The position numbers and the translations under genes were made by a program. Of a DNA stretch of 64,000 nt, positions 2,938-54,990 are shown in pieces. Every line of letters starts with the position of its first letter. Position 1 is the first letter of the stretch. The DNA is from Manis javanica (lineage: Eukaryota > Chordata > Mammalia > Pholidota > Manidae), in assembly GCF_040802235.1 (NCBI RefSeq), contig NC_133161.1:106843001-106907000 (forward strand), written 5' to 3'. A model generated the notes under the pieces. The model saw only the letters and a program-made list of their open reading frames with translations. It was not told the origin of the DNA and did no database searches.

Positions 2938-2954
2938 AAAAAGAGACTATTGCA
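2938..2954 (+). repeat. 5' target-site duplication of composite element 1
   Basis: The 17 bases aaaaagagactattgca are repeated at 10989-11005 with one mismatch (g/t at position 8). The A-rich 5' edge fits an L1 endonuclease nick (TTTT/AA type on the other strand). The L1 body begins immediately after it. Confidence 0.9.
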
Positions 2955-3969
2955 GCAGAACCAGGATGGCTGCATGAGTAGAGCAACGGAAATCTCCTCC
3001 CAAAACCACATATATCTATGAAAATATAACAAAGACAACTCTTCCTAGAATAAAGACCAGAGGACACAGGACAACATCCAGACCACATCCACACCTGCAA
3101 GAACCCAGCACTTCACAAAAGGGGTAAGATACAAGCCCTGGCCCGGCGGGTCCTGAGCGCCCCTTCCCCCAGCTCACGGCAGGAGGAGAGAGGTCTGAGC
3201 GGGAGGGAGAAACAGCCCAGGACTGCTGAACACCCAGCCCCAGCCATCCGGACCAGAGCGCAGACACAGTGAATGCACGGGGCCTTGGATACTAGGGAAA
3301 CAGGGCAGCAAGAATGGTGAGTGGGTACTGGAAGCCAGCACTGGAGGACAAAAGAAAAGCGAGCGGCTATCTTTTTTTTTTCTTGTCTTGGTTGTTGTTG
3401 TTTTGTTGTGGTGAGTGCTTTTTGGAAGTCTTAAAGGGACAGGGACCCCAATACTAGGGAAACAGAGCCCCAAGACCGGCAAGCGGGTATCGGAGACCGG
3501 CGCCAGAGAACAAAAGAAATGCGAGCGGCCACCTTTTTTTCTTTTTTTCTTTTTTTTTTTTTTGTGGTCATTGTTTTGTTTTGACGGGTGCTTTTTGGAA
3601 GTCTTAAAGGGGCAGGGCAGGATACTTAGTCCAGAGGTACGGAATCCAGGGATGTCTGTGCATTCTAATCCCTGGAGTTGCAAGGAGCACGGAGGCCCCT
3701 TATGGAGATAAATAGGCTCCCTGCCGCTCCCCCTCCAACGCAACTCTACCACTTTGGAGCAGCAGCCCGAGCCAGGCCACGCTCACCACAACAGGGGAGA
3801 TAAACTCCATAGCAGCGGGGCAGGAAGTAAAAGCCCTCTCTGTGCGCAGCTACCCAGCACAAGCCACTAGAGGTCACTATTCTCCCAGGAGAGGAAGGCC
3901 ACAAACCAACAAGAAGGGAAGTTCTTCCAGCCATCACTAGTCCCAGCTCTGCAAACTATTCCTATCACC
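2955..3969 (+). promoter_or_regulatory. L1 5'UTR (internal promoter region), class B
   Basis: GC-richer leader before ORF1, homologous to 43468-44263. It begins with the gatggctgcatgagtagagc motif typical of L1 5' ends. By family knowledge this region carries the internal RNA polymerase II promoter. It differs from the leaders of the L1s at 16289-16925, 33975-34572 and 41944-42897 (class A) but matches the leader at 20854-21668. It includes a tandem duplication described separately. Confidence 0.75.
3289..3624 (+). repeat. Tandem duplication inside L1 5'UTR
   Basis: Two units of about 162-174 bp. Each runs from 'atactagggaaacag' (3289 and 3451) to 'gctttttggaagtcttaaag' (3416 and 3590), with a pyrimidine/T-rich tract in the middle. 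The other composite copy has only one such unit (about 43790-43900). The layout recalls promoter monomers of mouse L1, but only two units are present. Confidence 0.8.
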
Positions 3970-4872
3970 ATGAAAAGACAAAATTACAGGCAAACCAAGA
4001 TCACAGAGACACCAGAGAAGGAGACAGACTTAACCAGTATTCCTGACAAAGAATTCAAAATAAAAATCATAAACATGCTGACAGAGATGCAGAGAAATAC
4101 ACAAGAGAAATGGGATAAAGTCTGGAGAGAGATCACAGATGCCAGAAAGGAGATTACAGAAATGAAACAAACTCTGGAAGGCTTTAGAAGCAGAATGGAC
4201 AAGATGCAAGAGGCCATTGATGGAATTGAAACCAGAGAAAAGGAATGCATAGAAGCTGACATAGAGAGAGATAAAAGGATCTCCAGGAATGAAACAATAT
4301 TAAGAGAACTGTGTGACCAATCCAAAAGGAACAATATCCATATTATAGGGGTACCAGAAGAAGAAGAGAGAGGAAAAGTGATGTAAAGTATCTTGGAAGA
4401 AATAATTGCTGAAAACTTCCCCAAACTGGGGGAGGAAATAATCGAACAGAACCCAGAAATACACAGAAACCCCAACAGAAGGGATCCAAGGAGGACAACA
4501 CCAAGACACATAATAATTAAAATGGCAAAGCTCAAGGACAAGGGAAGAGTTTGAAAGGCAGCTAGAGAGAAAAAGTTCACCTATAAAGGAAAACCCATCA
4601 GGCTAACATCAGACTTCTCAACAGAAACCCTACAGGCCAGAAGAGAATGGCATGATATATTTAATGCAATGAAACAGAAGGGCCTTGAACCAAGGATGCT
4701 GTATCCAGCACGACTATCATTTAAATATGATGGCAGGATTAAACAATTCCCAGACAAGCAAAAGCTGAGGGAATTTGCTTCCCACAAACCACCTCTACAG
4801 GGCATCTTACAGGGAATGCTCTATATGGGAGCACTCCTAAAAAGAGCACAGAACAAAACACCCAACATATGA
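3970..4872 (+). pseudogene. L1 ORF1 (RNA-binding protein) of composite copy 1, broken
   Basis: ORF1 encodes the trimeric nucleic-acid chaperone that coats L1 RNA. The frame opens at ATG 3970 (MKRQNYRQTKITE) and stays open for 138 codons through a lysine/glutamate-rich coiled coil with heptads, then the start of the RNA-recognition part (NIHIIGVPEEEERG). TAA at 4384 interrupts it. Downstream frames keep the C-terminal domain (MKQKGLEPRMLYPARLSFKY, from 4669). About 120 bp present at the end of the copy 2 ORF1 region are missing here. A normal family length is about 300 codons. It is non-functional. Confidence 0.85.
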
Positions 4873-5019
4873 AGAATGGAGGGAGAGGAATAAGAAGGGA
4901 GAGAAGAAAAGAATATCCAGACAGTGTATATAACAGCTCAATAAGTGAGCTAAGTTAGGCAGTAAGATACTAAAGAGGCTAATCTTGAACCATTGGTAAC
5001 CATGAATTTAATGCCTGCA

Positions 5020-8000
5020 ATGGCAATAAGTACATATCTTTCAAAAGTCACCGTAAATGTAAATGGACTGAATGCACCAATCAAAAGATATAGAGTAATA
5101 GAATGGATAAAAAAGCAAGACCCATCTATATGCTGCTTACAAGAAACTCACCTCAGACCCAAAGACATGGACAGACTAAAAGTCAAGGTATGGAAAAACA
5201 TATTTCAGGCAAACAACAGTGAGAAGAAAGCAGGGGTTGCAGTACTAATATCAGACAAAATAGACTTCAAAACAAAGACAGTAACAAGAGATAAAGAAGG
5301 ACACTAAATAATGATAAAGGGCTCAATCCAACAAGAGGATATAACCATTCTAAAAATATACGCACCCAACACAGGAGCACCAGCATATGTGAAACAAATA
5401 CTAACAGAACTAAAGGGGGAAAAAGACTGTGATGCATTCATTTTAGGAGATGTCAACACACCACTCACCTAAAAGATTGATCCACTGGGCAGAAAATAAG
5501 TAAGGACACGGAAGCACTGAACAACACAATAGTGCAGATGGATCTAATAGACATCTATAGAGCTCTACATCCAAAAGCAACAGGATATACATTCTTCTCA
5601 AGTGCACATGGAACATTCTCCAGAATAGACCACATACTAGCCCACAAAAAAAGCCTCAGCAAAATCCAAAATATTGAAATTCAACCAACCAATTTTTCAG
5701 ACCACAAAGGTATAAAAGTAGAAATAAATTCTACAAAGAAAACAAAAAGGCTCACAAACACATGCAGGCTTAACGACATACTCCTAAATAAGCAATGGAT
5801 CAATGAACAAATTAAAATATAGATCAAGGAATATATAGAAACAAACGACAACAACAACACAAAGACCCAACTTCTGTGGGGCACAGCGAAAGCAGTCCTA
5901 AGAGGAAAGTATATGGTGATCCAGGCACACTTGAAGAAGGAAGAACAATCCCAAATGAATAGTCTAACATCACAATCATCGAAACTGGAAAAAGAAGAAT
6001 AAATGAGGCCTAAAGTCAGAAGAAGGAGGGACATAATAGAGATCAGAGAAGAAGTAAACAAAATTGAGAAGAATTAAACAATAGAAAAAATCAATGAAAC
6101 CAAGAGCTGGTTCTCTGAGAAAATAAACAAAATAGAAAAGCCCCTAGCCAAACTTATTAAGAGAAAAAGAGAATCAACACAAATCAACAGAATCAGAAAT
6201 GAGAACGGAATAATCACAACAGACTCCACAGAAATACAAAGAATTATTAAAGACTACTATGAAAACCTATATGCCAACAAGCTGGAAAACCTAGAAGAAA
6301 TGGACAACTTCCTAGAAAAATACAACCTTCCAAGACTGACCAAGGAAGAAACACAAAAGTTAAACAAACGGTAATCAAAAAACTACCCAAGAACAAAGCA
6401 CCCGGACCTGACGGATTTACCTCGGAATTTTATCAGACACACAGAGAAGACATAATACTCATTCTTCTTAAAGTTTTCCAAAAAATAGAAGAGGAGGGAA
6501 TACTCCCAAACTCATTCTATGAAGCCAATATCACCCTAATACCAAAACCAGGCAAAGACCCCACCAAAAAAGAAAATGACAAATATCCCTGATGAATTTA
6601 GATGCAAAAGTACTTAATAAAATATTAGCAAACAGAATTCAACAGTATATCAAAAGGATCATACATCATGACCAAGTGGGATTCATCCCAGGGATGCAAG
6701 GATGGTAAAACATTCGAAAATCGATCAACATCATCCACCACATCAACAAAAAGACAGACAAAAACCACATGATCATCTCCATAGATGCTGAAAAAGCATT
6801 TGACAAAATTCAACATCCATTCATGATAAAAACTCTCAGCAAAATGGGAATAGAGGGCAAGTTCCTCAACATAATAAAGGCCATATATGATAAACCCACA
6901 GCCAACATAATACTGAACAGTGAGAAGCTGAAAGCTTTTCCTCTGAGATCGGGAACTAGACAGGGATGCCCACTCTCCCCACTGCTATTTAACATAATAC
7001 TGGAGGTCCTAGCCACAGCAATCAGACAAAACAAAGAAATACAAGGAATCCACATTGGTAAAGAAGAAGTCAAACTGTCACTATTTTCAGATGACATGAT
7101 ATTGCACATAAAAAAACCGAAAGACTCCACCCCAAAGCTACTGGAACCGATATCAGAATACAGCAAAGTTGCAGGATACAAAATTAACACACAGAAATCT
7201 GTAGCTTTCCTATACACTAACAATGAACTAATAGAAAGAGAAATCAGGAAAACAATTCCATTCACAGTAGCATCAAAAAGAATAGAACACCTAGGATTAA
7301 ATCTAACCAAAGAAGTGAATGACCTATACTATGAAAACTACAAGTCACTCTTAAGAGAAATTTAAGGTGACACTTACAAATGGAAACTCATCCCATGCTC
7401 CTGGCTAGGAAGAATTAATGTCATCAAAATGGCGATCCTGCCCAAAGCAATATACAGATTTGATGCAATCCCTATCAAATTACCAGCAACATTCTTCAAT
7501 GAACTGGAACAAATAGTTCAAAAATACATATGGAAACACCAAAGACCCCGAATAGCCAAAGCAATCCTGAGAAAGAAGAATAAAGTAGGGGGGATCTCAC
7601 TCACCAACTTCAAGCTCTACTATAAAGCCATAGTAATCAAGACAATTTGGTACTGGAACAAGAACAGAGCCACAGACCAGTGGAAAAGACTAGAGACTCC
7701 AGACATTAACCCAAACATATATGGTCAATTAATATTTGATAAAGGAGCCATGGACATACAATGGCGAAATGACACTCTCTTCAAAAGATGGTGCTGGCAA
7801 AACTGGACAGCTACATGTAGGAGAATGAAACTGGACCATTGTCTAACCCCATATACAAAAGTAAATTCAAAATGGATCAAAGACCTGAATGTAACTCATG
7901 GAACCATTAAACTCGTGGAAAAAAACATAGGCAAAAACCGCTTAGACATAAACATGAGTGACGTCTTCTTGAACATATCTACCCGGGCAAGGAAAACAAC

Positions 8001-8814
8001 AGCAAAAATGAACAAGTGGAACTATATTAAGCTGAAAAGCTTCTGCACAGCAAAAGACACCATCAACACAACAAAAAGGAACCCTACAGTATGGGAAAAT
8101 ATATTTGTAAATGACAGATCCGATTAATGGTTGACGTCCAAAATATATAAAGAGCTCACACGCCTCAACAAACAAAAATCAAATAATCCAATTAAAAAAT
8201 GGGCAGAGGAACTGAACAGACAGTTCTCCAAAAAAGAAATACAGATGGCCAACAGACACATGAAAAGATGCTCCACATCACTAATTATCAGAGAAATGCA
8301 AATTAAAACCACAATGAGGTATCACCTCACACCAGTAAGGATGGCTGCCATCCAAAAGACGAACAACAACTAATGTTGGCAAGGCTGTGGAGAAAGGAGA
8401 ACCCTCCTACACTGCTTGTGGGAATGTAAATTAGTTCAATCATTGTGGAAAGCAGTATGGAGGTTCCTCAAAATGCTCAAAACAGACTTACCATTTGACT
8501 CAGGAATTCCACTCCTAGGAACTTATCCTAAGAACGCAGGAATCAAGTTTGAGAAAGACAGATGCACACCTATGTTTATCGCAGCACTATTTACAATAGC
8601 CAAGAATTGAAAGCAACCTAAATGCCCATCGGTAGATGAATGGATAAAGAAGATGTGGTACATATACACAATGGAATACTACTCAGCCTTAAGAAGAGGG
8701 AAAATCCTACCATTTGCAGCAACATGGATGGAGCTGGAGAGTATTATGGTCAGTGAAATAAGCCAAGAGGAGAAAGGGAAATACCAAATGATTTCACTCA
8801 TCTGTGGAGTATAA
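5020..8814 (+). pseudogene. L1 ORF2 (endonuclease/reverse transcriptase) of composite copy 1, broken
   Basis: ORF2p nicks target DNA and reverse-transcribes L1 RNA by target-primed reverse transcription. I chose ATG 5020 (MAISTYLS) because other copies share it, and stop at 8812-8814. Visible parts are the AP-endonuclease-like domain (NGLNAPIKR, then QETHL with the catalytic Glu, GDVNTPL, SSAHGTFSRIDHIL, SDHKG), the reverse transcriptase ([30 protein letters not shown], catalytic F-S-D-D instead of the usual F-A-D-D), and the cysteine-rich C-terminus around 8380-8450. Stops and frameshifts at about 5308, 5470, 5820, 6370, 7363, 8126 and 8371 make it dead. Confidence 0.9.
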
Positions 8815-9168
8815 GAACAAAGGAAAAGCTGAAGGAATAAAACAGCAGCAGAATCACAGAACCCAAGAATGGAGTAACAGGTACCAAAGGGAAAGGGACT
8901 GGGGAGGATGGGTGCATAGGGAAGGATAAGGCAGGGGGAGAAGAAGAGGGGTAATAAGATTAGCATGCATGGGTGGGTGGGAGAAAGGGGAGGGCTGTAC
9001 AAAACAGAGAAGACACGTAGTGATTCTACAACATTTTGCTATACTCATGGACAGTGACTGTAAAGGGGTTTATAGGGGGGACCTGGTATAGGGGAGAGCC
9101 TAGTAAACATAATATTCTTCATGTAAGTGTAGATTAAAGATAACAAAAAAAAAGAAAGAAAGAGAAGG
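8815..9168 (+). other. L1 3'UTR and first poly(A) of composite copy 1
   Basis: The 3'UTR is G-rich around 8890-8990 and ends with 'gtagattaaagataac' at about 9143, the same point where the other L1s of the window end (for example antisense at 18600 and 11030). An A-rich tract follows (9144-9168). In an ordinary L1 the element would stop here. Confidence 0.8.
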
Positions 9169-9322
9169 GGGATTACTCCCTGATAGGATAAAACTAACTG
9201 TAAATCAATGATTAATGCACGCTTTAAATATCCTTAATTTTGATCACTTAAAGGTTGTCAGATGATAAGCTATGGATGTACACTTTCCTGATAATATTCC
9301 TTTCTCTTTAAAAAAAAAAAAA
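9169..9322 (+). other. Composite tail segment A, unknown origin, with second poly(A)
   Basis: About 141 bp of sequence (starting 'gggggattactccctgatag') followed by 13 A residues (9310-9322). The same segment sits at 49579-49731 in copy 2. I see no other copy in the window and no coding content. Its poly(A) end suggests it was the 3' end of an RNA. Confidence 0.7.
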
Positions 9323-9546
9323 GCAGTTCCTGTGTGGTGACCTCCAATTAGTTCTACACAAAGGTATAAAGGGCATATCAAACTGTGGGCAAAGGGTCTG
9401 TTTGTGTTTATACAGAGGATCAAAGCCTAATTTGACTACCCAGAAAATGAACTAAGATATGATATGAAGAGGAAGTTCCAACATCAGCACTCTCTGGAAG
9501 AAACATACCAGAAGATGATCAAAAAACCTCAACAAAGATTCAGGCG

Positions 9547-10010
9547 ATGCTGCATTTGTAGCTGCATTCATCCCACCAGTTCCTGGACTTGCCATTTGAA
9601 TGAAGAAGGAGATATCTAAGCTGGCCTGTGCATACAGTAAAACAACAAATTTGACTGTATCTATACTGTTGGAACTCAACCAATAATTATGAGAAGTGCA
9701 AGTTGGAATGCTCCAAAATCTTACAACTACAGACTATCTACTGTTAAAAGAATATATGGGATGTGAACAGTTCCCAGGTATGAGTTGTTTTAATTTGTCT
9801 GATTTCTCTCAGACTGTAAAAGTACAGTTGGACAATATCCATTATATCATAGACAAATTTCCACAAATGCCTAGGGTGCCTAACTGGTTTTCTTGGCTTC
9901 ACTGGAGATGGCTGGTAATTATAGATCTGCTTTGGTTATGTAACTGTATTCCTATTATGTTAATGTGTGTGTGCAGTTTAATTAGTAGTTTAAAACCTAT
10001 ACATGCTTAA
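9547..10010 (+). pseudogene. ERV env transmembrane-subunit fragment, copy 1, broken
   Basis: The translation resembles the TM subunit of a retroviral envelope. A hydrophobic N-terminal stretch is followed by a leucine-rich heptad region, a disulphide-loop motif C-X6-S-C, a Trp-rich membrane-proximal part and one membrane span with a short tail ending at TAA 10008-10010. The frame is cut by a stop just before the ATG-containing stretch at 9600 and by two more around 9685-9692. It is homologous to 49995-50501, which is open. The surface subunit is absent. The class of ERV is uncertain. Confidence 0.65.
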
Positions 10011-10605
10011 GTTACTCTACAAGAAGTTATGTCAAAGAAATAATCAATCTTCCCATGTTTTCTTCCGTCTGCTACCTCTATAGCTTTTCTTCTTCCTTCC
10101 TAATTACAACCCTTAAATAGAATTCGTCCCTCATATCGAATTCACCGAGTATCATAAATCCTCCAAGTGGTAAAGATACCTCAAGACAAATGCTGGGCAT
10201 AGAAGCCACAGGGCATAAATCTGCAAAGAAGTAAAAAGCTAAGCTTTTCAAACAATATGGCTTCTCTCTCACTTACCAACTTTACATTTCCCTGTATGGC
10301 CCCAGAAGACGACTGGTTAGCCAGAGACGGGTAAGATTCCTCAAGGGAGGAACAACCTAAGACAGGCACAGTCACAGGGGAGCCATCAGGTGAGAAATTG
10401 GGGATCAACAGAGGTGAGGCTTAGAACCTCACCCCCCCTGTTTTGAGAGAAATCTTCTGCATCCATCGATGTTTTATTGCCCTTGCCTAGCTTGGATTAA
10501 CACTTAGTCTACAGGCACACACCTGATCATCTACATTTGCTCTCTTACAACACTAAACTATGTTTTCTACCTTTATGGTGCGTCTACCTACCACTTCAGC
10601 ATTTT

Positions 10606-10607
10606 AT

Positions 10608-10660
<53 letters not shown>
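10606..10660 (+). repeat. (AAT)n microsatellite in ERV tail
   Basis: A near-perfect AAT/TAA run of about 18 units just before the LTR. The matching place in copy 2 (51070-51106) is shorter and interrupted (tagtaat), so it has changed length since the copies separated. Confidence 0.9.
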
Positions 10661-10661
<1 letters not shown>

Positions 10662-10668
10662 GGAGAAA

Positions 10669-10988
10669 TGTGGGATTCACATATAAAGTATAAAAATCAA
10701 ACGAATATTCATATTTGACCTGATTGTTTATAGTTCATAATGAGTGAGCAAAACAGAAAGTTTTTGTGATGACTGCCCTTGTACTGTTCACCCTGTAAGA
10801 ACTTATTCACTATGTAAGAATTTGCTCACCATGTAAGAACTTGTTCGTTATGCTTCAGAAGATTGGAGACTGATGAGAATTAGGCTGGGGGTGGATTAAT
10901 GATTGTGCATTGAGCATTGACTCCCCTATACAGAATTTCATTTTTGTTAACAACCATTTGATCAATAAATATGAGAGATGCCCTCAAA
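10669..10988 (+). mobile_element. ERV LTR end (U3-R) supplying the poly(A) site, copy 1
   Basis: It begins TGTGGGATTC right after a short purine run (gggagaaa) that can serve as the polypurine tract. It carries TATAAAG/TATAAAAA at 10683-10697, a roughly 20-bp imperfect tandem repeat (ttcaccatgtaagaacttg type, about 10785-10850), and AATAAA at 10964-10969, 16 bases before the final poly(A). There is no U5 or CA end, which is what an RNA polyadenylated in R would leave. Confidence 0.7.
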
Positions 10989-11005
10989 AAAAAGATACTA
11001 TTGCA
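10989..11005 (+). repeat. 3' target-site duplication of composite element 1
   Basis: aaaaagatactattgca matches 2938-2954 at 16 of 17 positions and directly follows the terminal A tract. Confidence 0.9.
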
Positions 11006-16288: not shown

Positions 16289-16925
16289 ATTTGTATATGG
16301 TGCCCTCTAGTGTCCAGAAGCTCTATTCTATTCTGGAGCTGCTCAGGAACTGAAGCAGTGTTGGGGGTCGTAGGGGAGTGGTATTGGTACCTAGGGGGAG
16401 GGAAGAGCTGTTCCCCTCTTGCCTGCTGCTGTGCCTGTCTCCACTGCCTGAACCAGTGGGCCAATCACACAGATATAAGCTTTTGTCCCAGAGCAGCCAG
16501 ATATGGATCCCTGCTTTCCACAAGCAGCTGGAATCCCAGTCTCCCCGGGAACTCTGCCTGTCCCAGCTTTCCAACACTGTAATCAGAAGAGTATGATGAA
16601 AGCACCATGAAATGTAGGTTTGTGCTCCCAGCACAGATACCCAGAGCTAGGTATTCAGCAGTCCCAAGCCTTCCACTCCCTCCCTGCTCAGTTTGTCTTC
16701 CTCCTGCCAGTGAGCTGGAGTGGGGGAGGGACTCGGGTCCCATGGAGCCACAGCTCTGGTACGTTACCCTGTTTGCTGAGGTCTGCTCTTTCCTCCAGGT
16801 GTATGCAGTCTGGTGCTGCCCTCTTTCCTGTTGCTCTCAGGATTAGTTGTGCCAACTATATTTTCTAATTTTATCCAGTTTTAGGAGGAAGCGTCTGTCT
16901 CTCCTCTCACACTGCCATCTTTATT

Positions 16926-21500: not shown

Positions 21501-21668
21501 CCTTTGCGATGCACTAGGTTCTCACAGGTGTAGATGTAGTCTGGGTGTTGTCCTGTGTCTTCTGATGTCTCTTTTAGGAATAGTTGTATTTGTTGTATTT
21601 TCAAAAATATATATGGTTTTGGGAGGAGATTTCTGCTAGTCCACTCACACCACCATCTTGGTTCTCTG
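18572..21668 (-). mobile_element. Young L1 with internal ORF2 deletion, minus strand (class B leader)
   Basis: T-rich poly(A) tail (18572-18598), 3'UTR and the last ORF2 codons to about 19142. It then joins directly to the endonuclease start (19143-19685), ORF1 (19954-20853) and a class B 5'UTR (20854-21668), which shares the 'aaaaagcactcgcctttctt' stretch with the composite leaders. About 3 kb of ORF2, including the reverse transcriptase, is missing. The 13-bp duplications at 18559-18571 and 21669-21681 enclose it. Its 3' end is the ordinary L1 end without an ERV tail, although its leader class is that of the composites. Confidence 0.85.
19954..20853 (-). pseudogene. L1 ORF1, minus strand, of the 18572-21668 element
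   Basis: Opens MKRQKNLIQTKITEANPEKE at 20853. The first 80-odd codons form the coiled coil (LPEKELKLKF, then QELRDDVW), and the frame is lost near 20590 at the GTHRS end of the open stretch. The remaining C-terminal domain is recognisable to TAA 19954-19956. Its N-terminus is closer to the composite ORF1 (MKRQNYRQTKITE) than to those at 16288 or 41943. Confidence 0.75.
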
Positions 21669-36519: not shown

Positions 36520-36924
36520 TTGTCTTTATTTTATTTTATTTTTTAGATTTTATTTATTTATTTATTTTAATTAAAATTTTTATTAAGGTATTATCAATAT
36601 ACACTCTTGAGAAGGTTTCACATGAAAAAACTATGTGGTTACTACATTTACCGATATTATCGAGTTTCCACTGATACCCCATTGCAGTCACTGTCCATCA
36701 GTATAGGAAGATGCCACAGATTCATTATTTGGTTCTCTGTGCTACACCGTCTTTCCTGTGACCCCTCACACCATGTGTACTAAACATAATACCCCTCAAT
36801 CCCCTTCTTCCCTCCCCACTGGCCCTCCCACACTCCTCCTCCTATTTGGGAACCCCTAGTCCCTTCTTGGAGTCTGTGAGTCTGCTGCTATTTTGTTCCT
36901 TCACTTTTGCTTCATTGTTATGCT

Positions 36925-39900: not shown

Positions 39901-40776
39901 TTAGAACTGCCTTCACTGTGTCCCACAGAATTTGGGGCTTTGTGCTGTTGTTTTCAGTTGCCTCCATATATTGCTTGATCTCTGTTTTAATTTGGTCATT
40001 GATCCATTGGTTATTTAGGAGCATGTTGTGAAGCCTCCATGTGTTTCTGAGCCTTTTTGTTTTCTTTGTAGAATTTATTTCTACTTTTATACCCTTTGTT
40101 CTGAGAAGTTCATTGGTAAAATTTCAATCTTTTTTAATTTACTGAGGCTCTTTTTGTGGCCCAGTAAGTTGTCAATTCTGGAAAATGTTCCATGTGCACT
40201 TGAGAAGAATGTGTATCCTACTGCTTTTGGTGTAGTGTTCTGTAGATGTGTGTTAGGTCCATCTGTTCTAATCTGTTCAATGCCTCTATCTCCTTACTTA
40301 TTTTCTGTCTGGTTGATCTCTCCTTTGGAATGAGTGGAGTGTTGATGTCTCCTAGAATGACTGCATTACATTCTCTTTCCCCTTTTAATTCTGTTAGTAT
40401 TTGTTTCACATATGTAGGTGCTCCTGTGTTGGGTGCACAGATATTTATAATGATTATATCCTCTTATTGCATTGACCCCTTTATCATTATGTAATATCCT
40501 TCTTTGTCTCATGATTTTCTTTGTTTTGAAGTCTATTTTGTCTGATACAAATACTGCAACACCTGCTTTTTTCTCCCTATTAATTGCATGAAATATATTT
40601 TTCCATCCCTTCACTTTTAGTCTGTGTATGTCTTTGGGTTTAAAGTGAGTCTCTTGTAGGCAGAATACAGTTGGCTCTTGTTTTTTTATCCATTCGGTGA
40701 CTCTATGTCTTTTGATTAGTGCATTCAAATCATTTACATTTAGGGTGATTATCAAAAGGTATGTACTTATTGCCAT
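36925..40776 (-). pseudogene. L1 ORF2, minus strand, broken
   Basis: Starts at MAISTYLLIITLNVN (40776). The endonuclease beginning (40366-40803) is open with QETHFKPKD. Later blocks include 39731-40024, 38898-39113 ([12 protein letters not shown]), 38104-38310 and 37134-37724 ([17 protein letters not shown]). The reverse transcriptase catalytic region around 38640 lies in a frame-broken stretch. The end near 36925 is approximate. Confidence 0.8.
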
Positions 40777-41046
40777 TGCAGGCTTTAGATTCATGGTTAC
40801 CAAAGGTTCAAGGGTAACTTGCTTACTATCTAAGAGTCTAGCTTAACTCACTTAGTATGCTATTACAAATACAATCTAAAGGTTCTTTCCCCCCTCCCCT
40901 GCTCTTTTTCTTCCTCCTCCATTCTTTATATATTAGGTATCATATTATGTACTCCTTGTCTATCTCTTGATTGACTTTGTGGGTAGTTGATTTAATTTTC
41001 CATTTACTTAGTAATTAATTGTTCTACTTTCTTTACTGTGGCTTTA

Positions 41047-41943
41047 TTACCTCTGGTGACAGCTATTAAACCTTAGAAACTCTTCATCTATAGCAGTTCC
41101 TCCAAAATACTGTAGGGACAATTAGTGGTAGGCAAACTTAGCTTTTGCTTAACTGGAAATCACTTAATCCATCCTTCAAATTTAAATGATAGTCTTTCCA
41201 GGTAGAGTATTCTTGTTTGGTGGCCCTTTTGTTTCATTGCATTAAATATATCATGCCACTCCCTCTGGCCTGTAAGGTTTCTTTTGAGAAGTCTGATGAT
41301 AGTCTGATGTGTTTTCCTTTGAATATGTTCTTTTTTCCATATCTGGCTGCTTTTAAAAGTCTGTCCTTATCCTTGATCTTTGCCATTTTAATTTTTATAT
41401 GTCTTGGTGTTGTCTTCCTTGGGTCCCTTTTGTTGGGAGATTTGTGCATTTCCATGGCCTAAGAGATTATCTCCTTCCACGGATTGAGGAAGTTTTCAGC
41501 AATTACCTCTTCAAAGACACTTTCTATCCCTTTTTCTGTATCTTCTTTTCCTGGGATCTCTATAATGCAAATATTTTTCTGTTTGGATTGGTCACATAGT
41601 TCTCTCAATATTCTTTCATTCCTAGGGTTCCTTTTTTCTCTCTGTGCTCAGCTTCTTTTTACTCCTGTTTTCTAATTTCTATTTCATCTACCATCTGCTC
41701 TGCCTCATCTAATCTGCTTTTAAATCCCTCCATTGTATGTTTCATTTTGGCTACTGTATTTTTCATATTTTGTATCTCATTCTTGAATTCCTCCCTGAGT
41801 TAGTGAATATTTATCTGTAGCTCTATGATCATGTTTATGATTTTTATTTTGAAATCTCTTTCAGGAAGATTGATGAGTTCAGTTTCACTTGGCCCTCTTT
41901 CTGGTGTTTGTGAGATTTGGTTTGAACCAGGTTCTTTTGACAT
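41047..41943 (-). pseudogene. L1 ORF1, minus strand, broken
   Basis: Begins MSKEPGSNQISQTPERGPSE at 41943, an N-terminus unlike that of the composite L1s, followed by the shared LPERDFKIKIINM block. The middle is frame-broken. The C-terminal block is recognisable at 41234-41455 (SPNKRDPRKTTPRHIKIKMA). TAA at 41047-41049 is at the family position. Confidence 0.75.
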
Positions 41944-42897
41944 TTCACATTTGTAGGTGGCGCCCTCTAGGGCACAAGTCTCCACTCTCTGGAGATGCTC
42001 AGCCCCTGGAGCAATGGTGGGGGTTGCAGGGGATCAGTGCTGGTGCCTTTCAAGAGGAAAGAGCTCTTTACTGCTTCCCGGCTTCAGTGCCTGCCTCCAC
42101 TGCCTGTTCCAGTGGGCTGAGTGTGCAGGGAGAATCTTCTATAGTTTGCACTTGTAGCTGCTATTGGCAGGGCTGCCCTCTGGGTGGCCTGGCCCAGTGG
42201 CAGGGGCAGCTGATTTGCTAGTGGGTGCCATCTGTGAGGAAGGAGTATTGTGCTGAATTTCAGGATGGGGGACCTCATAGTTGCACTGCCAGCGAGGAGA
42301 GTGGTGCACCTGAACCTTCTGAAAGTTCTCAACCTGCTGGACATAGTGTAACAGGACAATTTTGTCCAGCTATCCATTCTCATGAGTAGCAAGCTCTGTG
42401 AAATTCTTGCCATTTTAGCAGCCCTCTCACTGTTGGGAAGCCTCTCAGACTGCCCACCTTTCTTTTGTCCCAGAGAGGACAGTTGTGGATACCTGTTTTC
42501 CACAAGCTGCTAGAATCTCAATCTCTCCAATATTCCACCTGTCTTAGTTCTCCAATCCCACTAATGTCCATAGCACTAGGCAATGTAGGTTTGTGCTCCC
42601 AGAGCAGGTTTCCAGGGCTGGGTGTTCATCAGTCCTAGGCCTCCACCCCCTCCCTGCTCTGTTTCTCTTCCTCCACTGGTGAGCTGGAGTGAGGGAGGGG
42701 CTTGGATCCCTGTGGATCATGGCTTTGGTACTTTAACCTTTTCATTGAGGTCTGCTGTTTTGCCCAGGTGTAGGCAGTCTGGTGCAGGTTTCTTTCCTGT
42801 TGTTCTTTCAGGATTAGTTGTATTTGCTATATTTTCATATTATATGTGGTTTGTGAGGAGGCTCCTGCCTCATCTCTCATGCTTCCATCTTTAAGCC

Positions 42898-43467
42898 TAT
42901 TCCATTCAGAAGCTTTTTAGTTTGATGTGAGTAATCCTGCTTCTTCATTTTTTATTGTTTCCCTTGCACAAGGGCATGTATACAGGAAAAACTGCTCATG
43001 CTTATGTTCTAGAGATTTTTGCCTATGCTTTCCTTTAAGAGTTTTATGTTTTCATGTCTTACATTTAGGTATTTGTTTCATTTTGAGTTTACTTTTGTGT
43101 ATGGAGTGAGACAGTGATCCAGTTTGATTGTCTTTCATTTAGATGTCCAGTTTCCCCAAGAAAGTTGAAGAAACTGTCTTTTCCCCACTGTATATTCATC
43201 ACTTCTTCATTATATATTAATTGACTATATGTGTGTGGGTTTATGTAGGGGCTCTCTATTCTGTTTCATTGATCTGTTGGTCTGTTCTTGTGCCAATACC
43301 ATACCATTTTGATTATTGTAGCTTTGCAGTATACTTTGAAGTGAGGGGTGTAATACCCCTGGCTTTGTTCTTGTTTCCCAGGATTGCTTTGGCAGTTTGG
43401 GGTCATTTTTGGTTTCATATCAATGTTAGGATTACTTGCTCTAGTTCATTTAAAAAATGTCATTGGA
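42898..43467 (-). mobile_element. Old L1 ORF2, minus strand (part 1 of split element)
   Basis: Antisense C-terminal ORF2 starting at the 'cagaagctttttagtttgat' point and running to 43467, where composite copy 2 was inserted. It resumes at 51452. The 3' end of this old L1 is missing to the left, where the 36520-42897 element begins. Confidence 0.75.
43452..43467 (+). repeat. 5' target-site duplication of composite element 2
   Basis: aaaaaatgtcattgga recurs at 51436-51451 as aaaaaatgtcgttgga (15 of 16). It is part of the old L1 host sequence, and the nick context T/AAAAAA suits L1 endonuclease. Confidence 0.9.
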
Positions 43468-44263
43468 GGGGGTGGAGCCAAAATGGCAGCGTGAGTAGAG
43501 CAGTGTAAATCTCCTCCCAAAACCACATATATTTTGGAAAATACAACAAAGAAAACTCTTCCTAGAAGAGAGACCAGAAGACACAGCACAACAGCCAGAC
43601 CACATCCACACCTGCAAGAACCCAGCGCCTCACAAAAGGGGTAAGATACAAGCCCTGGCCCGAGCGCCCCACAGCCCAGCTCCGGGCGGGAGGAGAGGAG
43701 TCAAAGCGAGGAGGGAGAGGGAGCCCAGGACTGCTAAACAGCCCTAGCCATCCGCATCAGAGCACAGACACAGTGCATGCGTGGGGAGCTGGAAACTATG
43801 GAAACAGGAGAGTAAGACCTGCAAGCAGGTCCCTGCAGATGGCGAACCCAGGACAAAGAAAAGCGAGTGCTTTTTGGAAGTCTTAAAGGGATAGGGACCC
43901 CGCCACCTGACAGAAGCATCCTGAGACACTTAGTCCAGCAGTAGGGAATCTGGGGAACTCTGGGCACTCTAACACCTGGGCAGCAGGGAGCATGGAGGCC
44001 TCTCACAGAGATAAATAGACTCCCAACCATTCCCCCTCCAACATGGCTCCACCATATCAGAGCAGAAACCCGAGGCAGGCGACGCCCACAGCAACAGTGG
44101 AGATAAACTCCTTAGCAGCCGGGCAAGAATCAGAAGCCCTTTCTGCACCAGCACAAGCCATTAGGGGTCACTGTTCTCCCAGGAGAGGAAGGTGACAAAC
44201 CAACAAGAAGGGAAGTTCTTCCAGCTGTCACTAGTCCCAGCTCTGCAAACTATCTCTATCACC

Positions 44264-45165
44264 ATGAAAAGGCAAAATTACAGGCAAACAAAGATAACAG
44301 AGACAACACCAGAGAAGGAGACAGACCTAACCAGTCTTCCTGAAAAAGAACTCAAAATAAAAATCATAAACATGCTGATGGAGATGCAGAGAAATATACA
44401 AGAGCTAAGGGATGAAGGTCAGAGGGAGATTACAGATGCCAGGAAGGAGATTACAGAAGTGAAACAAACTCTGGAAGGATTTATAAACAGAATGGATAAG
44501 ATGTAAGAGGCCATTGATGGAATAGAAACCAGAGAACAGGAATGCATAGAAGCTGACACAGAGAGAGATAAAAGGATCTCCAGGAATGAAACAATATTAA
44601 GAGAACTGTGTGACCACCCCAAAGGAACAATATCCGTATTTTAGGGGTACCAGAAGAAGAAGAGAGAGGAAAAGGGATGGAAAGTATCTTGGAAGAAATA
44701 ATTGCTGAAAACTTCCTCAAACTGGGGGAGGAAATAATTGAACAGACCATGGAAATACACAGAACTCCCAACAGAAAGCACCCAAGGAGGACAACACTGA
44801 CACATAATAATTAAAATGCAAAGATCAAGAACAAGGACAGAGTATTAAAGGCAGCCAGAGAGAGAAAAAAGGTCACCTACAAAGGAAAACACATCAGGCT
44901 ATCATCAGACTTCTCAACAAAAACCTTAAAGACCAGAAGAGAATGGCATGATATATTTAATGCAATGAAACAGAAGGGCCTTGAACCAAGGATACTGTAT
45001 CCAACATGACTATCATTTAAATATGAAGGAGGGATTAAACAATTCCCAGACAAGCAAAAGCTGAGGGAAATTGCTTCTCACAAACCACCTCAACAGGGTA
45101 TTTTAGAGGGACTGTTCTAGATGGGATCACTCCTAAGACTAAACAGATGTCACCAAAGAAAATGA
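44264..45165 (+). pseudogene. L1 ORF1 of composite copy 2, broken
   Basis: Opens MKRQNYRQTKITETTPEKET at 44264 and runs 80 codons through LPEKELKIKIINMLMEMQRN to a TAA at 44504. The remaining coiled coil, RNA-binding and C-terminal parts are readable with further frame breaks. The family stop falls at 45163-45165, giving about 300 codons for an intact gene. The same N-terminus as copy 1 supports one subfamily. Confidence 0.85.
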
Positions 45166-45434
45166 AATCACAGCAAAGAAAGCAGACGAACAAAATACTA
45201 ACTAAAGGCAAAAATTAAAATCAACTACCCACTAAAAGCAGTTAAAGGAAACACGAAAGAGCACAGAATAAAACAACCAACATATGAAGAATGGAGGAGG
45301 AGGAATAAGAAGGTAGAGAAGAAAAGAATCTCCAGACAGTGTATATAACAGCTCAATAAGTGAGCTAAGTTAGGCAGTAAGATACTAAAGAAGCTAACCT
45401 TGAACCTTTGGTAACTGCAAATCTAAAGCCTGCA

Positions 45435-48400
45435 ATGGTAATAAGTACATACTTTTCAATACTCACCCTAAATGTAAGTGAACTGAATGCACCAATCAAA
45501 AGACAAAGAGTAACAGAATGGATAAAAAAGCAAGACCCATCTATATGCTGCTTACAAGAAACTCACCTCAGACCCAAAGACATGCACAGACTAAAAGTCA
45601 AGGGATGGAAAAACATATTTCAGGCAAACAACAGAGAGAAGAAAGCAGGGGTTGCAGTACTAGTATCAGACAAAATAGATTTCAAAATAAAGACTGTAAC
45701 AAGAGATAAAGAAAGACACTACATAATGATAAAGGGCTCAGCCCAATAAGAGGATATAACCATTATAAATATATATGCACCCAATACAGGAGCACCAGCA
45801 TATGTAAAACAAATACTAACAGAACTAAAGGGGGAAATAGAATGCAATGCATTCATTTTAGGAGACTTCAACACACCACTCAGCCTAAAGGATAGATCCA
45901 CTGGGCAATGAACAACACACTAGAACAGATGGACCTAATACACATTTATAGAACTCTACATCCAAAAGAAACACGATATACATTCTTCTCAAGTGCACAT
46001 GGAACATTCTCCAGAATAGACCACATACTAGCTCACAAAAAGAGCCTCAGTAAATTCCAAATGATTGAAATTCTACCAACCAACTTTGCAGACCACAAAG
46101 GTATAAAACTAGAAATAAATTCTACAAAGAAAGCAAAGAGGCTCACAAACACATGGAGGCTTAACAACATGCTACTAAATAATCAATGGATCAATGAACA
46201 AATTCAAAGAGATCAAAGAATACATGGAAACAAATGACAACAACAACACAAAGCCCCAACTTCTGTGGGACGCAGCGAAAGCAGTCTTAAGAGGAAAGTA
46301 TATAGCGATCCAGGCACACTTGAAGAAGGAAGAACAATCCCAAATGAAGTCTAACATCACAATTATTGAAACTGGAAAAAGAAGAACAAATGAGGCCTAA
46401 AGTCAGCAGAAGGAGGGACATAATAAAGATTAGAGAAGAAATAAACAAAATTGAGAAGAATAAAACAATAGCAAAAATCAATGAAACCAAGAGCTGGTTC
46501 TTTGAGAAAATAAACAAAATAGAAAAGCCCCTAGCCAAACTTATTAAGAGAAAAAGAGAATCAACACAAATCAACAGAATCAGAAATGAGAATGGAAAAA
46601 TCACGACAGACTCCACAGAAATACAAAGAATTATCAAAGACTACTATGAAAACCTATATCCTAACAAGCTGGAAAACCTAGAAGAAATGGACAGTTTCCT
46701 AGAAAAATACAACCTACCAAGACTGACCAAGGAAGAAACACAAAAGTTAAACAAACCAATTACGAGCAAAGAAATTGAAACGGTAATCAAAAAACTACTC
46801 CAAGAACAAAACCCCCAGGCCAGACAGATTTACCTCGGAATTTTATCAGACATACAGAGAAGACATAATACCTAATCTCCTTAAAGTTTTCCAAAAAATA
46901 GAAGAGGAAGGAATACTCCCAAACTCATTCTATGAAGCCAACATCACTCTAATACCAAAACCAGGCAAAGACCCCACCAAAAAAAGAAAATTACAGACCA
47001 ATATCCCTGATGAATTTAGATGAAAAAATACTCAATAAAATATTAGCAAACCGAATTCAAAAATATATCAAAAGGATCGTACACCATGACCAAGTGGGAT
47101 TCATCCCAGGGATGCAAGGATGGTACAACATTTGAAAATCCATCAACATGATCCACCACATTAACAAAAAGAACAAAAACACATGATCATCTCCATAGAT
47201 GCTGAAGAAGCATTTGATAAAATTCAACATCCATTCATGATAAAAACTCTCAGCAAAATGGGTATAGAGGGCAAGTACCTCAACATAACAAAGGCTACTT
47301 ATGATAAACCCACAGCCAACATCATAGTGAACAGCAAGAAGCTGAAAGCTTTTCCTCTGAGATTGGGAACAAGACAGGGATGCCCACTCTCTGCACTGTT
47401 ATTTAAGATAGTACTGGAGTTCCTAGCCATGGCAATTAGACAAAACAAAGACATACAAGGAATCCAGATTGGTAAAGAAGAAGTTAAACTGTCACTATTT
47501 GAAGATGACATGATATTGTATATAAAAAACCTTAAAGACTCCACTCCAATGCTACTAGAACTAATATCAGAATACAGCAAAGTTGCAGGATACAAAACTA
47601 ACACACAGAAATCGGTGGCTTTCCTATACACTAACAATGAAACAATAGAAAGAGAAATAAGGAAAACAACTCCATTCACAATTGCATCAAAAAGAATAAA
47701 ATACCTAGGAAAAAACCTAACCAAAGAAGTGAAAGACCTATACCCTGAAAACTACAAGACACTCTTAAGAGATATTAAAGGGGACACTAACAAATGGAAA
47801 CTCATCCCATGCTCATGGCTAGGAAGAATTAATATCGTCAAAATGGCCATCCTGCCCAAAGCAATATATAGATTTGATGCAATCCCTATCAAATTACCAG
47901 CAACAATCTCCAACAAACTGGAACAAATAGTTCAAAAATTCATATGGAAACACCTAAGACCCCAAATAGCCAAAGCAATCCTGATAAGGAAGTATAAAGT
48001 GGGGGGGATCTCACTCCCCAACTTCAAGCTCTACTACAAAGCCATAGTAATCAAGACAATTTGTTACTGGCACAAGAACAGTGCCACAGACCAGTGGACC
48101 AGATGAGAGACTCCAGACATTAACCCAAACATATATGGTCAATTAATATTTAATGAAGGAGCAATGGACATACAATGGGGAAATGACAGTCTCTTCAACA
48201 GATGGTGCTGGCAAAACTGGACAGCTACATGTAGGAGAATGAAACTGGACCACTGTCTAACTCCATGCACAAAAATAAATTAGAAATGGATCAAAGACCT
48301 GAATGTAAGTTATGAAACCATAAAACGCTTAGAAAAAAACATAGACAAAAATCTCTTAGACAAAAACTTGAGTGACCTCTTGAACATATCTCCAAAGGCA

Positions 48401-49223
48401 AGGAAAACAAAAGCAAAAATGAACAAGTGGAACTATATGAAGCTGAAAAGCTTCTGTACAGCAAAAGACACCATCAATAGAACAAAAAGGTACCCTACAG
48501 TATGGGAGAATATATTTGTAAATGATAGATCCAATAAAGGCTTGACATCCAAAATATATAAAGAGCTCACCCACCTCAACAAACAAAAAACAAATAATCC
48601 AATTAAAAAATGGGCAGAGGAACTGAACAGACAGTTCTCCAAAAAAAATTCAGATGGCCAACAGACACATGAAAAGATGCTCCACATTGCTAATTATCAG
48701 AGTAATTCAAATTAAAACCACAATGAGATATCACCTCACACCAGTAAGGATGGCTACCATCCAAAAGACAAACAACAACAAATGTTGGCAAGGCTGTGGA
48801 GAAAGGGGAACCCTTCTACACTGCTGGTGGGAATGTAAATTAGTTCAACCATTGTGGAAAGCAGTATGGAGGTTCATTAAAATGCTCAGAATAGACTTAC
48901 CATTTGACCCAGAAATTCCACTCCTAGGAATTTACCCTAAGAATGCAGCACTTCAGTTTGAAAAAGACAGATGCACCCCTATGTTTATCGTAGCACTATT
49001 TACAATAGCCAAGAATTGGAAGCAACCTAAGTGTCCATCAGTAGATGAATGGATAAAGAAGATGTGGTACATATGCACAATGGAACATTATTCAGCCATA
49101 AGAAGAAAACAGACCCTACCATTTGCAACAACATGGATGGAGCTAGAGGGTATTATGCTCCGTGAAATAAGCCAAGTGGAGAAAGATAAATATGAAATGA
49201 TTTCACTCATATGGGGAGTGTAG
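45435..49223 (+). pseudogene. L1 ORF2 of composite copy 2, broken
   Basis: ATG 45435 to TAG 49221-49223, about 1263 codons if intact. Endonuclease pieces are 45408-45749 (QETHLRPKD) and 45908-46237 (SSAHGTFSRIDHIL). The linker is at 46366-46875. The reverse transcriptase runs 47183-48106 in one open frame of 307 codons ([30 protein letters not shown]), with the catalytic motif F-E-D-D instead of F-A-D-D. The C-terminus is at 48654-49223 with [17 protein letters not shown]. Frame breaks lie between the pieces. The altered catalytic neighbour residue and the breaks make it inactive. Confidence 0.9.
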
Positions 49224-49578
49224 AACAAAGAAAAACTGAAGGAACAAAACAGCAGCAGAATCACAGAACCCAAGAATGGACTAACAGGTACCAAAGGTAA
49301 ACGGATTGGGGAGGATGGGTGGGTAGGGAGGGATAAGGGGGAGGAAGAAGAAAGGGGGTATTATGATTACCATGCATAATGTGGGGGGTGGGAGAAAGGG
49401 GAGGGCTGTGCAACACAGAGAAGACAAGTAGTGATTCTACAACATTTTGCTATGCTGAAGGACAGTGACTGTAATCGGGTTTGTGGTGGGGGGGACTTGG
49501 AATAGGGGAGAGCCTAGTAAACATAATATTCTTCATGTAATTGTAGATTAATGATAACAAAAAAAAGAGAGAAAGAAA
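49224..49578 (+). other. L1 3'UTR and first poly(A) of composite copy 2
   Basis: G-rich 3'UTR (49300-49500) ending 'gtagattaatgataac' at about 49557, then an A-rich tract. This is the point where ordinary L1s of this window stop. Confidence 0.8.
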
Positions 49579-49731
49579 AGGGGGATTACTCCCTGATAGG
49601 ATAAAACTAACTGCAAATCAACGATTAATGCATGCTTTCCACATCCTTAATCTTGATCTTTCAAAGGGTGTCAGATGATCAGCTATGGAAGTACATTTTT
49701 CTGATAATATTCCTTCCTCTTAAAAAAAAAA
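49579..49731 (+). other. Composite tail segment A with second poly(A), copy 2
   Basis: Homologous to 9169-9322; ends with ten A residues (49722-49731). Origin unknown, no coding content. Confidence 0.7.
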
Positions 49732-49734
49732 GCA

Positions 49735-49776
49735 GCTCCTTGCAAACCGTTTGGTGTCAAGCTGCCTGTGAATCTG
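49735..49776 (+). repeat. 42-bp segment shared with 56449-56490
   Basis: It starts gctccttgcaaaccg and ends tgcctgtgaatctg, and 41 of 42 positions match 56449-56490 (one a/g change). Similarity stops sharply at the right edge and fades into A-rich sequence at the left. Absent from composite copy 1, which has a deletion here. Confidence 0.85.
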
Positions 49777-49994
49777 GGTTTAGTTTCACTGGTGATCTCC
49801 AATAGGTTCTTCACAGTGGTATAAATGTCATATCAAAGTGTGGGCAAGGGGTCTGTTTGTGTTTATACAGAGGATCAAAGCCTAATTTGGCTACACAGAA
49901 AATGAATTAAGGTACGATATGAAGAAGAACTTCCAACATCAACATCCTCTGGAAGAGTCATTCCAGAAGATGATCATCAAAAAACTTCAACTAA

Positions 49995-50501
49995 GATCCT
50001 GGCGCTGCTACAGTTGTAGCTGCAGTCATCCCACCGGTTCCTGGACTTGCCATTATAATGAAGAAGGAGATATCTAAGCTGGCCTGTGCATACAGTAAAA
50101 CAACAAATTTGACTGGATCTATACTGTTGGAACTCAACCAAGAATTAGGAGAAGTGCAAGTTGCAGTGCTCCAAACTCTTGCGACTATAGACTATCTACT
50201 GTTAAAAGAACACATGGTATGTGAACAGTTCCCAGGAATGAGTTGTTTTAATTTGTCTGATTTTTCTCAAACTATTCAAATTCAGTTAGACAATATCCAT
50301 TGTATCATTGATAAGTTTTCACAAATGCCTAGAGTACCTAACTGGTTTTCTTGGTTTCACTGGATATGGCTGGTAATTGTAGGTCTGCTTTTGTTATGTA
50401 GCTGTATTCCTATTATGTTAATGTATGTGCACAATTTAATTAGTAGTTTAAAACATATACATGCTTATGTTACTCTACAAGAAGATATGTCAAAGAAATA
50501 A
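49995..50501 (+). pseudogene. ERV env transmembrane-subunit fragment, copy 2, open
   Basis: An open frame of 168 codons follows a stop at 49992; the first Met is at 50058. In order it shows a hydrophobic Ala/Val/Pro-rich stretch like a fusion peptide, a leucine-rich heptad region with an N-glycosylation-type NLT, a loop C-X6-S-C (a CX6CC-like motif with the middle Cys replaced by Ser, as in copy 1), an NLS glycosylation-type site, a Trp-rich membrane-proximal part, one membrane span of about 20 residues and a tail of about 23. The surface subunit and cleavage site are missing, so it is a fragment. I infer a class I-like ERV with low certainty. Confidence 0.65.
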
Positions 50502-51113
50502 TCAATCTTCCCATGTTTTCTTCCATCTGCTATTTCTATAGCTTTTCTTCTTCCTTCCTAATTACAACCCTTTAGTATAATTCATGCCTCATATCGAAAA
50601 TTACTGAGTATCATAATTCTTCCAAGTGGTAAAGATACCTCAAGACAAATGCTGGGCATAGAAGCCACAGGGCATAAATTTGGCAAGAAGTAAAAAGCTA
50701 ACCTTTTCAAACAATGTGGCTTCTCTCTCACTTACCAACTTTACATTTCCCTGTATGGCCCCGGAAGATGACTGGTTAGCCAGAGACGGGTAAGATTCCT
50801 CAAGGGAGGAACAACCTAAGACAGGCACAGTCACAGGGGGGCCATCAGGAGAGAAATTGGGGACCAACAGAGGTGAGGCTTAGAACCTCACACCCCCTGT
50901 TTTGAGAGAAATCTTCCACATCTGTGGATGTTTTGTTGCCCTTGTCTAGCTTGGATTAATACTTAGTCTATAGGCACACACCTGATCATCTACATTTGCC
51001 CTCTTACAGCACTAAATTATGTTTTCTACCTTTATCTTGCATCTACTTACCACTTCAGCATTTTATTTAAAATAATAATAATAATAATAATAATAGTAAT
51101 AATAATGGAGAAA

Positions 51114-51435
51114 TGTGGGATTCACATATAAATCAAGTATAAAAATCAAACGAATAATCATATCTGACTTGATTGTTTATAGTTCATGATGCGTGATCAA
51201 AACCGAAAGTTTCTCTGATATGACTGCCCTTGCACTGTTCACCATGTAAAAACTTATTCACTATGTAAGAACTTGTTCACCATGTAAGAACTTGTTCGTT
51301 ATGCTTCAGAAGATTGGAGACTGTTGAGAAATAGGCTTGGGGTTGATTAATGACTGTGCATTGAGTCCCCTGTACAGAATTTTATTGTTGTTAACAACCA
51401 TTTGATCAATAAATATGAGAGATGCCCTCTCAAAA
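51114..51435 (+). mobile_element. ERV LTR end (U3-R) supplying the poly(A) site, copy 2
   Basis: Starts TGTGGGATTC after 'atggagaaa' and an AAT-rich run (51070-51106). It has a tandem of ttcaccatgtaa-type 20-bp units at about 51238-51300 and AATAAA at about 51409-51414, 17 bases before the A tract. It lacks the U5 part, as expected if copied from polyadenylated RNA. Confidence 0.7.
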
Positions 51436-51451
51436 AAAAAATGTCGTTGGA
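51436..51451 (+). repeat. 3' target-site duplication of composite element 2
   Basis: aaaaaatgtcgttgga, right copy of the duplication at 43452-43467. Confidence 0.9.
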
Positions 51452-54400: not shown

Positions 54401-54990
54401 AGGTTTGTGGTTACCATGAGGGACAAGGATAGTTTCCTAACTATATAACAATATATATTAAGTTGACAATTGCTCTATTTCAAACACCATCTAAAAGCAC
54501 TTGTTTTTTATTCCTCTTCCTCCTCAACTTTTATGTATTAGATGCCATAATCTGCATTTTTTGTATGTGTTTAGTTGATTTTACTACTTTTGTTTTGTTT
54601 TGCTTTAATTTCATACTTGGTTGGTAAGTAATTGGTCTACTACTTTTACTGTGGGTTTAGTTTCACTGGTGAAAACTATTTGGGCTTAAGAAATACAAAA
54701 GTCCCTTTTACATATCTTGTAATGCTGGTGTAGTAGTGATGAATTCCTTCAGTCTTCATTTATCTGGGAAATTTTTAATCTCATTCAAATTTGAATGATA
54801 ATCTTACCAAGTAGATTATTCTTGGTTGTATGTCCTTCTGTTTCAATACATTAAATATTTCAGGCCACTCCCTTCTGGCCTATAAAATTTCTGCTGAGAA
54901 GTCTGCTGATAGCCTGATGGAGTTTTTCTTATAAGTAAATTTTTTTCTCTATAGCTTCTTTCAGTACCATCTCCTTATCCTTAATCTTTG
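51452..54990 (-). mobile_element. Old L1, minus strand (part 2 of split element)
   Basis: Continues the old L1 of 42898-43467. The minus strand reads ORF2 back through the reverse transcriptase (51780-52950) and endonuclease (53300-54240), and ORF1-like sequence to about 54990. A solo LTR interrupts it at 52256-52643. Frames are short and decayed (52725-52955, 53332-53562). No class A or B leader is recognisable at the end. Confidence 0.75.
52256..52643 (-). mobile_element. Solo LTR inside the old L1
   Basis: A 388-bp insertion that starts TG and ends CA on either strand. It is flanked by atcat (52251-52255) and attat (52644-52648), a 5-bp duplication with one mismatch; removing it restores normal L1 sequence. 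On the minus strand it reads TGTGGGGTAAATGG at the start, has a CCAAT at about 52577 and AATAAA at about 52361, then ends GGAGCTACA. No internal ERV sequence remains. I cannot name the family. Confidence 0.75.

Follow-up and report, generated by a model that had tools for sequence, protein, structure and literature searches.

The DNA analysed here, a stretch of 64,000 bases from the pangolin Manis javanica (contig NC_133161.1, positions 106,843,001 to 106,907,000 of the forward strand; hereafter the window), holds two copies of a composite element in which a long interspersed element 1 (L1) is followed by the 3' end of an endogenous retrovirus (ERV) and a poly(A) tract (Table 1). Copy 2, on which we focus, has its unit at 43468-51435 and is enclosed by its own 16-bp target-site duplication, differing from the 17-bp duplication (1 mismatch) of copy 1, which confirms a second insertion of the composite, as claimed in an earlier sequence-only reading. 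When the flanks of copy 2 are joined, the resulting 816 bp form one uninterrupted L1 across the join and align along their full length (or a single base short of it) with four other L1 stretches found in the window, at 76-78% identity (37839-38662, 12263-13072, 47490-48315 and 7076-7900), showing that the insertion target was another L1, in register on both sides, as had also been proposed.

Table 1. Features of the two composites, in window coordinates (TM, transmembrane; ASLV, avian sarcoma/leukosis virus; LTR, long terminal repeat; UTR, untranslated region; ORF, open reading frame)
Feature	Position	Strand	Remarks
Copy 1 including duplications	2938..11005	+	duplications 2938-2954 and 10989-11005; L1 2955 to ~9144; tail ~9168-10985
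5' target-site duplication, copy 2	43452..43467	+	16 bp, 1 mismatch to 51436-51451; within the L1 that resumes after 51451
L1 body, copy 2, 5' UTR to 3' UTR, decayed	43468..49558	+	aligned with copy 1 and other window L1s; ORFs broken
A-rich linker joining the L1 3' end to the ERV tail	49559..49579	+	position common to 28/30 loci
Tail part 1, ERV upstream of the env gap	49580..49723	+	in nine ERV loci it continues ERV sequence lying upstream
A-tract and tail part 2, ERV env region, with private insert 49737-49795	49724..49994	+	L048 and L054 match all of part 2
env TM fragment, 168 open codons and stop	49995..50501	+	nearest solved chains ASLV fusion TM, E ~1e-9
ERV stretch from env to LTR, with AAT microsatellite	50502..51113	+	partial in ERV loci, full in composites
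ERV LTR, U3 and R only; AATAAA at 51408-51413	51114..51431	+	R continues into U5 in ERV loci, stops here in composites
Poly(A), running into the A-rich start of the 3' duplication	51432..51441	+	from sequence; A-run at the same place in 30/30 loci
3' target-site duplication, copy 2	51436..51451	+	pairs with 43452-43467

The two copies compared

In the comparison that the sequence-only reading had suggested, the two copies align continuously from the 5' end of the L1 through to the poly(A), with the L1 part 10.1% and the tail 9.0% different; divergence reaches 18.8% in the 5' UTR, above that of the L1 part, partly owing to extra repeated sequence in copy 1 (by eye). Homology continuing past the duplications had been named as the mark of a segmental duplication, but it ends at them, with 37.6% identity in the last 101 aligned columns beyond the 3' duplications. 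All four region trees of the window's L1s place the L1 parts of copies 1 and 2 as sisters (support 100/99, 96/97, 100/100 and 99/98), which, with the same junction at different target sites, upholds the proposal of a chimeric source copied at least twice. That proposal was understated, as the tail has thousands of copies. A chance ERV neighbour is excluded for the pair by unrelated flanks, different duplications and the closed site.

The tail structure is the same in both copies overall, as stated earlier, except that copy 2 alone carries a private insert of ~60 bp (49737-49795), 40 bp of which match 56451-56490 (97.5%) and the next 21 bp 54652-54672 (100%). Both matches lie 3-5 kb downstream in the same orientation, a few letters are shared at the borders (by eye), and the insert resembles a product of templated repair acquired once copy 2 was in place.

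Among the other L1s of the window, a tail-less element at 11016-16461 (minus strand) resembles the composites in ORF2 (88-90%), while its ORF1 is nearer to another L1 type, being 81% identical to that at 36577-42120 and 75% to the composites, a mismatch in affinity that may be read as a sign of L1 recombination. Another, at 18581-21664 (minus strand), has kept both ends and lost ~3 kb of ORF2.

The tail and its retroviral donor family

The 168-codon frame at 49995-50498 is an env TM fragment whose nearest solved relatives are ASLV TM chains (E ~1e-9). A protein search turned up 34 relatives in public contigs, among them P0017, whose residues 2-125 match a place in the window's own genome without a difference; no relative was found among viral contigs. 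A Pfam scan gave two weak matches, both below cut-off, and tRNA and Rfam scans found nothing.

We read 20 genome loci, nine of which (L046, L048, L049, L050, L051, L052, L054, L058 and L061) join tail parts 1 and 2 to further upstream ERV sequence without an L1, as far as the 50-90 bases available upstream extend; the other eleven include composites, L1s and more distant or rearranged copies. The nine ERV loci have parts 1 and 2, then sequence that is missing from the composite, then the TM region, and measured against L048 and L054 the composite lacks ~0.9 kb of env. The tail common to both copies, which had been described as three-part, therefore stands as a shared tail, but not as three unrelated parts: parts 1 and 2 are contiguous in the ERV loci with TM ~0.9 kb on, and the whole is the 3' part of one ERV that lacks an internal segment. 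Two further candidates were rejected. The second internal A-tract does not prove a second transduction, as it aligns with the A-rich AAAACAACA of the ERV loci (GAAACAACA in two of them, shorter in one), and splicing as the origin of the env gap found no clean GT-AG by eye in five ERV loci.

The short provirus at one further locus, L056, has two LTRs and U5 as well as a primer-binding-like TGGCGCCCAAACAGGGAC, which we take to be of the lysine type; its median identity to 31 tails is 87.5%. In the ERV loci R runs into U5, whereas in the composites R gives way to an A-run precisely at the R/U5 border, where an LTR transcript is naturally polyadenylated; with AATAAA upstream of it, the tail ends at a polyadenylation site. 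Judged by these comparisons, the tail is derived from one ERV family that is still present in the genome. Two observations stand beside this family. Positions 1-1380 of L053 hold a different, AATAAA-rich L1 end directly upstream of ERV env sequence, a second case of an L1 beside the tail's ERV family, and the public protein P0034 (171 aa) has the env TM end fused to an L1 ORF1 domain, probably through nested insertion or rearrangement.

The junction between L1 and ERV was followed in the 30 loci that best match the copy 2 tail, copy 2 included, a set biased to complete, young tails in which L011/L015/L016 and L023/L024 share 3' flanks and are not independent. In 28 of these loci the L1 3' end lies at the same tail junction; L007 and L017 are cut near it and have no L1 end. 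An A-run follows R in all 30. The composite order is L1 3' UTR, A-rich linker and AAAAGGGGGATTAC, the linker being without AATAAA or ATTAAA in 25 of 28 loci (L007 and L017 left out for want of an L1 end), and at the corresponding place CATTATTTATTAAAACAAAAAGGGGGATTAC or a near variant stands in most of the nine ERV loci. ERV homology starts at TT/AAAA, the target of the L1 endonuclease, or no more than a few bases from it. The sequence TTAAAA, named as an L1 insertion signature (PMC9604959), is exact in six of the nine ERV loci, which hold this hexamer 32 times in 30,159 bases.

Copy number, target sites and lineage history

Genome-wide pattern counts, allowing up to 3 mismatches and with reversed-pattern controls at 0 each, gave 12,972 tail starts, 28,167 tail 3' ends (R ends), 14,137 cases of R followed by A18 and 20,319 L1 3' ends of the composite type; R joined to U5 was counted 260 times, a figure that misses diverged LTRs. 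Both window copies thus belong to a very large family of thousands of copies and are not a rare oddity. At these densities the chance of at least two R ends in 64 kb is 16%, and of at least two tail starts 4%, so that the pair in the window is unremarkable. On contig C1, among the matches listed, 14 of 100 exact tail starts follow an exact L1 end, itself listed and on the same strand, at a distance of ~30-60 bases (by eye). Also among the matches listed, exact R ends are much denser than exact tail starts: 100 of the former occupy the initial 13.9 Mb of C1, 100 of the latter extend over 213 Mb, and some exact R ends stand in rows ~370 bp apart (C1:2241799/2242169/2242541; C1:6426345/6426723), a pattern suggestive of either a younger, short poly(A) retroposon the size of an LTR or nested insertions.

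The predicted 5' end was read at 12 loci, and the L1 start is present in five of them; these five, L007 and the two window copies were dissected. Duplications in a copy's own flanks scored 11-15 in all eight, against at most 9 in 224 mispaired tests, and in all eight they enclose the whole composite unit, which in L007 is 5'-truncated and starts in the linker, while L020 has ~17 extra bases between its 5' duplication and the L1. Four of the eight (L007, L014, L019 and L027) have a second duplication beyond an extra locus-specific piece of ~105-250 bases that ends in an A-run. These pieces behind the LTR end represent further 3' transductions and show that the composite lineage transduced its flanks; they could serve as tags to trace source copies.

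The tail tree (computed without L015, L016 and L024 because of their shared flanks) has the shape of a star, from which copy 1 stands off on a long branch. The tail of copy 1 is an outlier, 7.7% from its nearest neighbour and 9.0% from the others in the median, whereas that of copy 2 sits in the younger, star-like set (nearest 4.2%, median 5.0%), so that the two did not come from a single immediate source; the window copies represent different phases and branches of one lineage. Among 20 younger copies (medians leave out L004, L006, L007, L013, L015-L018, L024 and L025) the pairwise median is 4.8% (4.82%) for the tail and 6.25% for the last 1.1 kb of the L1, and copy 1 differs from these copies by 9.0% in the tail and 9.6% in the L1 end. 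At a mammalian substitution rate near 2e-9 per site per year, 2.4% per copy would roughly correspond to 10 million years. No sign of recent activity was seen: the tail of L002 has no other match above 96% among 42 matches (40 of 7,104 candidates scored), and in the 150 ORF2 relatives that were scored out of 273,939 candidates, composite or not, no open frame exceeds 920 codons, the length of the longest.

Between copies 1 and 2, ORF2 has an excess of third-position differences (109/1035 vs 145/2066, p 0.001) that remains without CpG sites (98/1012 vs 125/2027, p 0.0006), with rates relative to the tail of 1.17 vs 0.84 and 0.74. The env TM fragment has no such excess in the same pair (13/105 vs 23/210, p 0.85) and no sign of selection there (10.1, 10.1 and 9.5% at the three codon positions) or among 27 copies (3.57, 5.13 and 4.22%; the three shared-flank loci omitted from the tail tree are left out here too, as is copy 1); its frame is unbroken in 18 of the 27. 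This difference points to ORF2 having been under selection during the life of the lineage while env travelled as cargo, and suggests that a working ORF2 was kept between phases, a modest test given the null result in ORF1.

Origin of the composite and its place among known systems

We propose, with good confidence, that an L1 lying in an ERV transduced the viral 3' end and so founded a high-copy, long-lived L1 lineage, of which copy 2 is one insertion. An L1 would have inserted once, in sense, into the ERV at a TT/AAAA site; transcription of that L1 would have continued beyond its 3' end as far as the ERV LTR's poly(A) site, and the transcripts would have been retrotransposed, a 3' transduction; the chimera would have kept working L1 proteins for some time and spread as a source lineage by its own proteins, and the LTR poly(A) site would sometimes also have been read through, picking up further flanks. 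We infer the founding insertion, the read-through and the spread by own proteins from the fixed junction in 28 of 30 loci, the nine ERV loci whose homology starts at TTAAAA, the end at the R/U5 border, the L1-type duplications and further transductions in the dissected copies, the copy numbers and the ORF2 excess.

Several results weigh against this proposal. The source locus, an L1 within the ERV, was not found, and ERV sequence lies upstream at none of the five places where a narrow pattern matched. In the 20 younger copies divergence is greater in the L1 end than in the tail (6.25% vs 4.82% median), which may be due to loci having been picked by tail similarity, and ORF1 is without a third-position excess (21/236 vs 41/473). 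Furthermore, the tail-start 34-mer holds no L1 letters, so that genome-wide attachment to an L1 rests on the 30 chosen loci, five of which fall in the two shared-flank groups, and on the 14 co-located pairs of C1.

Template switching, in which L1 reverse transcriptase at work on polyadenylated ERV RNA jumped to the 3' end of an L1 RNA and the product then spread in the same way, would leave much the same structure (A-rich L1 end, ERV part, poly(A) at the R end); it is on record in U6/L1 chimeras (PMC4859970), and both routes are named for chimeric L1s (PMC6500023). We nevertheless regard it as improbable, since the start of ERV homology at TTAAAA in six of nine loci would then be a coincidence of ~1% (one hexamer per 942 bases, with a few bases' leeway) and since four of eight copies of the same family carry plain read-through transductions. 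Still harder to sustain, and very unlikely in our judgement, is the reverse nesting, an ERV that landed in or just behind an L1 whose transcript ended in the ERV LTR, a route known for the LTR of an intracisternal A particle (IAP) in the source of the mouse Lama2 dy-Pas mutation (PMC6466679): the tail begins inside the ERV without a 5' LTR, behind a complete L1 3' end and an A-rich linker, and a later deletion of the ERV 5' part would have had to end at TT/AAAA. Segmental duplication multiplies some copies elsewhere, as the common 3' flanks of the two groups named above show, but for the window pair it is refuted by the same unrelated flanks, different duplications and uninterrupted closed site that exclude a chance neighbour.

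The composites resemble recorded L1 3' transductions, serial cases included (PMC4859970), in their succession of L1, A-rich stretch, non-L1 flank and second poly(A) within enclosing target duplications; they differ from those described there in that an ERV 3' part was transduced and the product became a lineage of thousands. Lama2 dy-Pas is a single mutation caused by an L1 that transduced an IAP LTR (PMC6466679). It shares with our proposal an L1 transcript that was polyadenylated in an ERV LTR and retrotransposed, a step that is inferred in the pangolin; in the mouse case the ERV lay inside the source L1 and its 5' LTR was used, whereas here the L1 seems to have lain inside the ERV, the tail consists of env and the 3' LTR, and the family is fixed and of high copy number. 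The SINE-R part of SVA elements (PMC4859970) is likewise an ERV env 3' part with LTR that ends in poly(A) and is moved by L1 machinery; SVA has hexamer, Alu-like and variable number of tandem repeats (VNTR) parts and no L1 body, whereas a full L1 precedes the ERV part of the composites. Both window copies have an L1 body ahead of the tail, the VNTR and Alu-like parts having been outside the search. Nor are the composites proviruses, having one U3-R without U5, a poly(A) and L1-type duplications.

For the human lineage, chimeric insertions have been described as one way in which new L1 forms arise (PMC13174262), a likeness to the present case; that work covers 5' chimeras, and its main text has no mention of pangolin, endogenous retrovirus or ERV. 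Similar in arrangement is ERV-Gamma.b9-Mpen, an ERV of a pangolin: an almost complete L1 separates its ENV from its 3' LTR (PMC12584738) and so lies, as proposed for the founding L1 here, within the 3' part of an ERV; it is interpreted there as a single provirus hit by an L1, and the account given describes no L1 family. A literature search of titles and abstract starts, with the repeat databases Dfam and Repbase outside its scope, found no L1 lineage of thousands with an ERV 3' end. 3' transduction as such is well known, and an L1 lineage of thousands of copies with an ERV 3' end looks like a variation on it. It is possible, if rather doubtful, that the capture itself helped, with the LTR poly(A) site, or an escape from silencing directed at the former 3' end, taking the place of a weak L1 ending, so that the composite became a leading L1 lineage of the host and later the origin of short, LTR-sized poly(A) retroposons, in parallel to the origin of SINE-R and SVA.

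3' transductions are usually treated as single events or small families; here one 3' transduction seems to have founded an L1 lineage of thousands of copies and to have carried a retroviral env-LTR piece to 28,167 R ends, against the 260 counted as joined to U5. Captured 5' ends have been proposed to drive L1 turnover (PMC13174262), and the pangolin lineage makes the corresponding idea testable for captured 3' ends. In such genomes, matches to env and LTR sequences may be the cargo of L1s and not proviruses.

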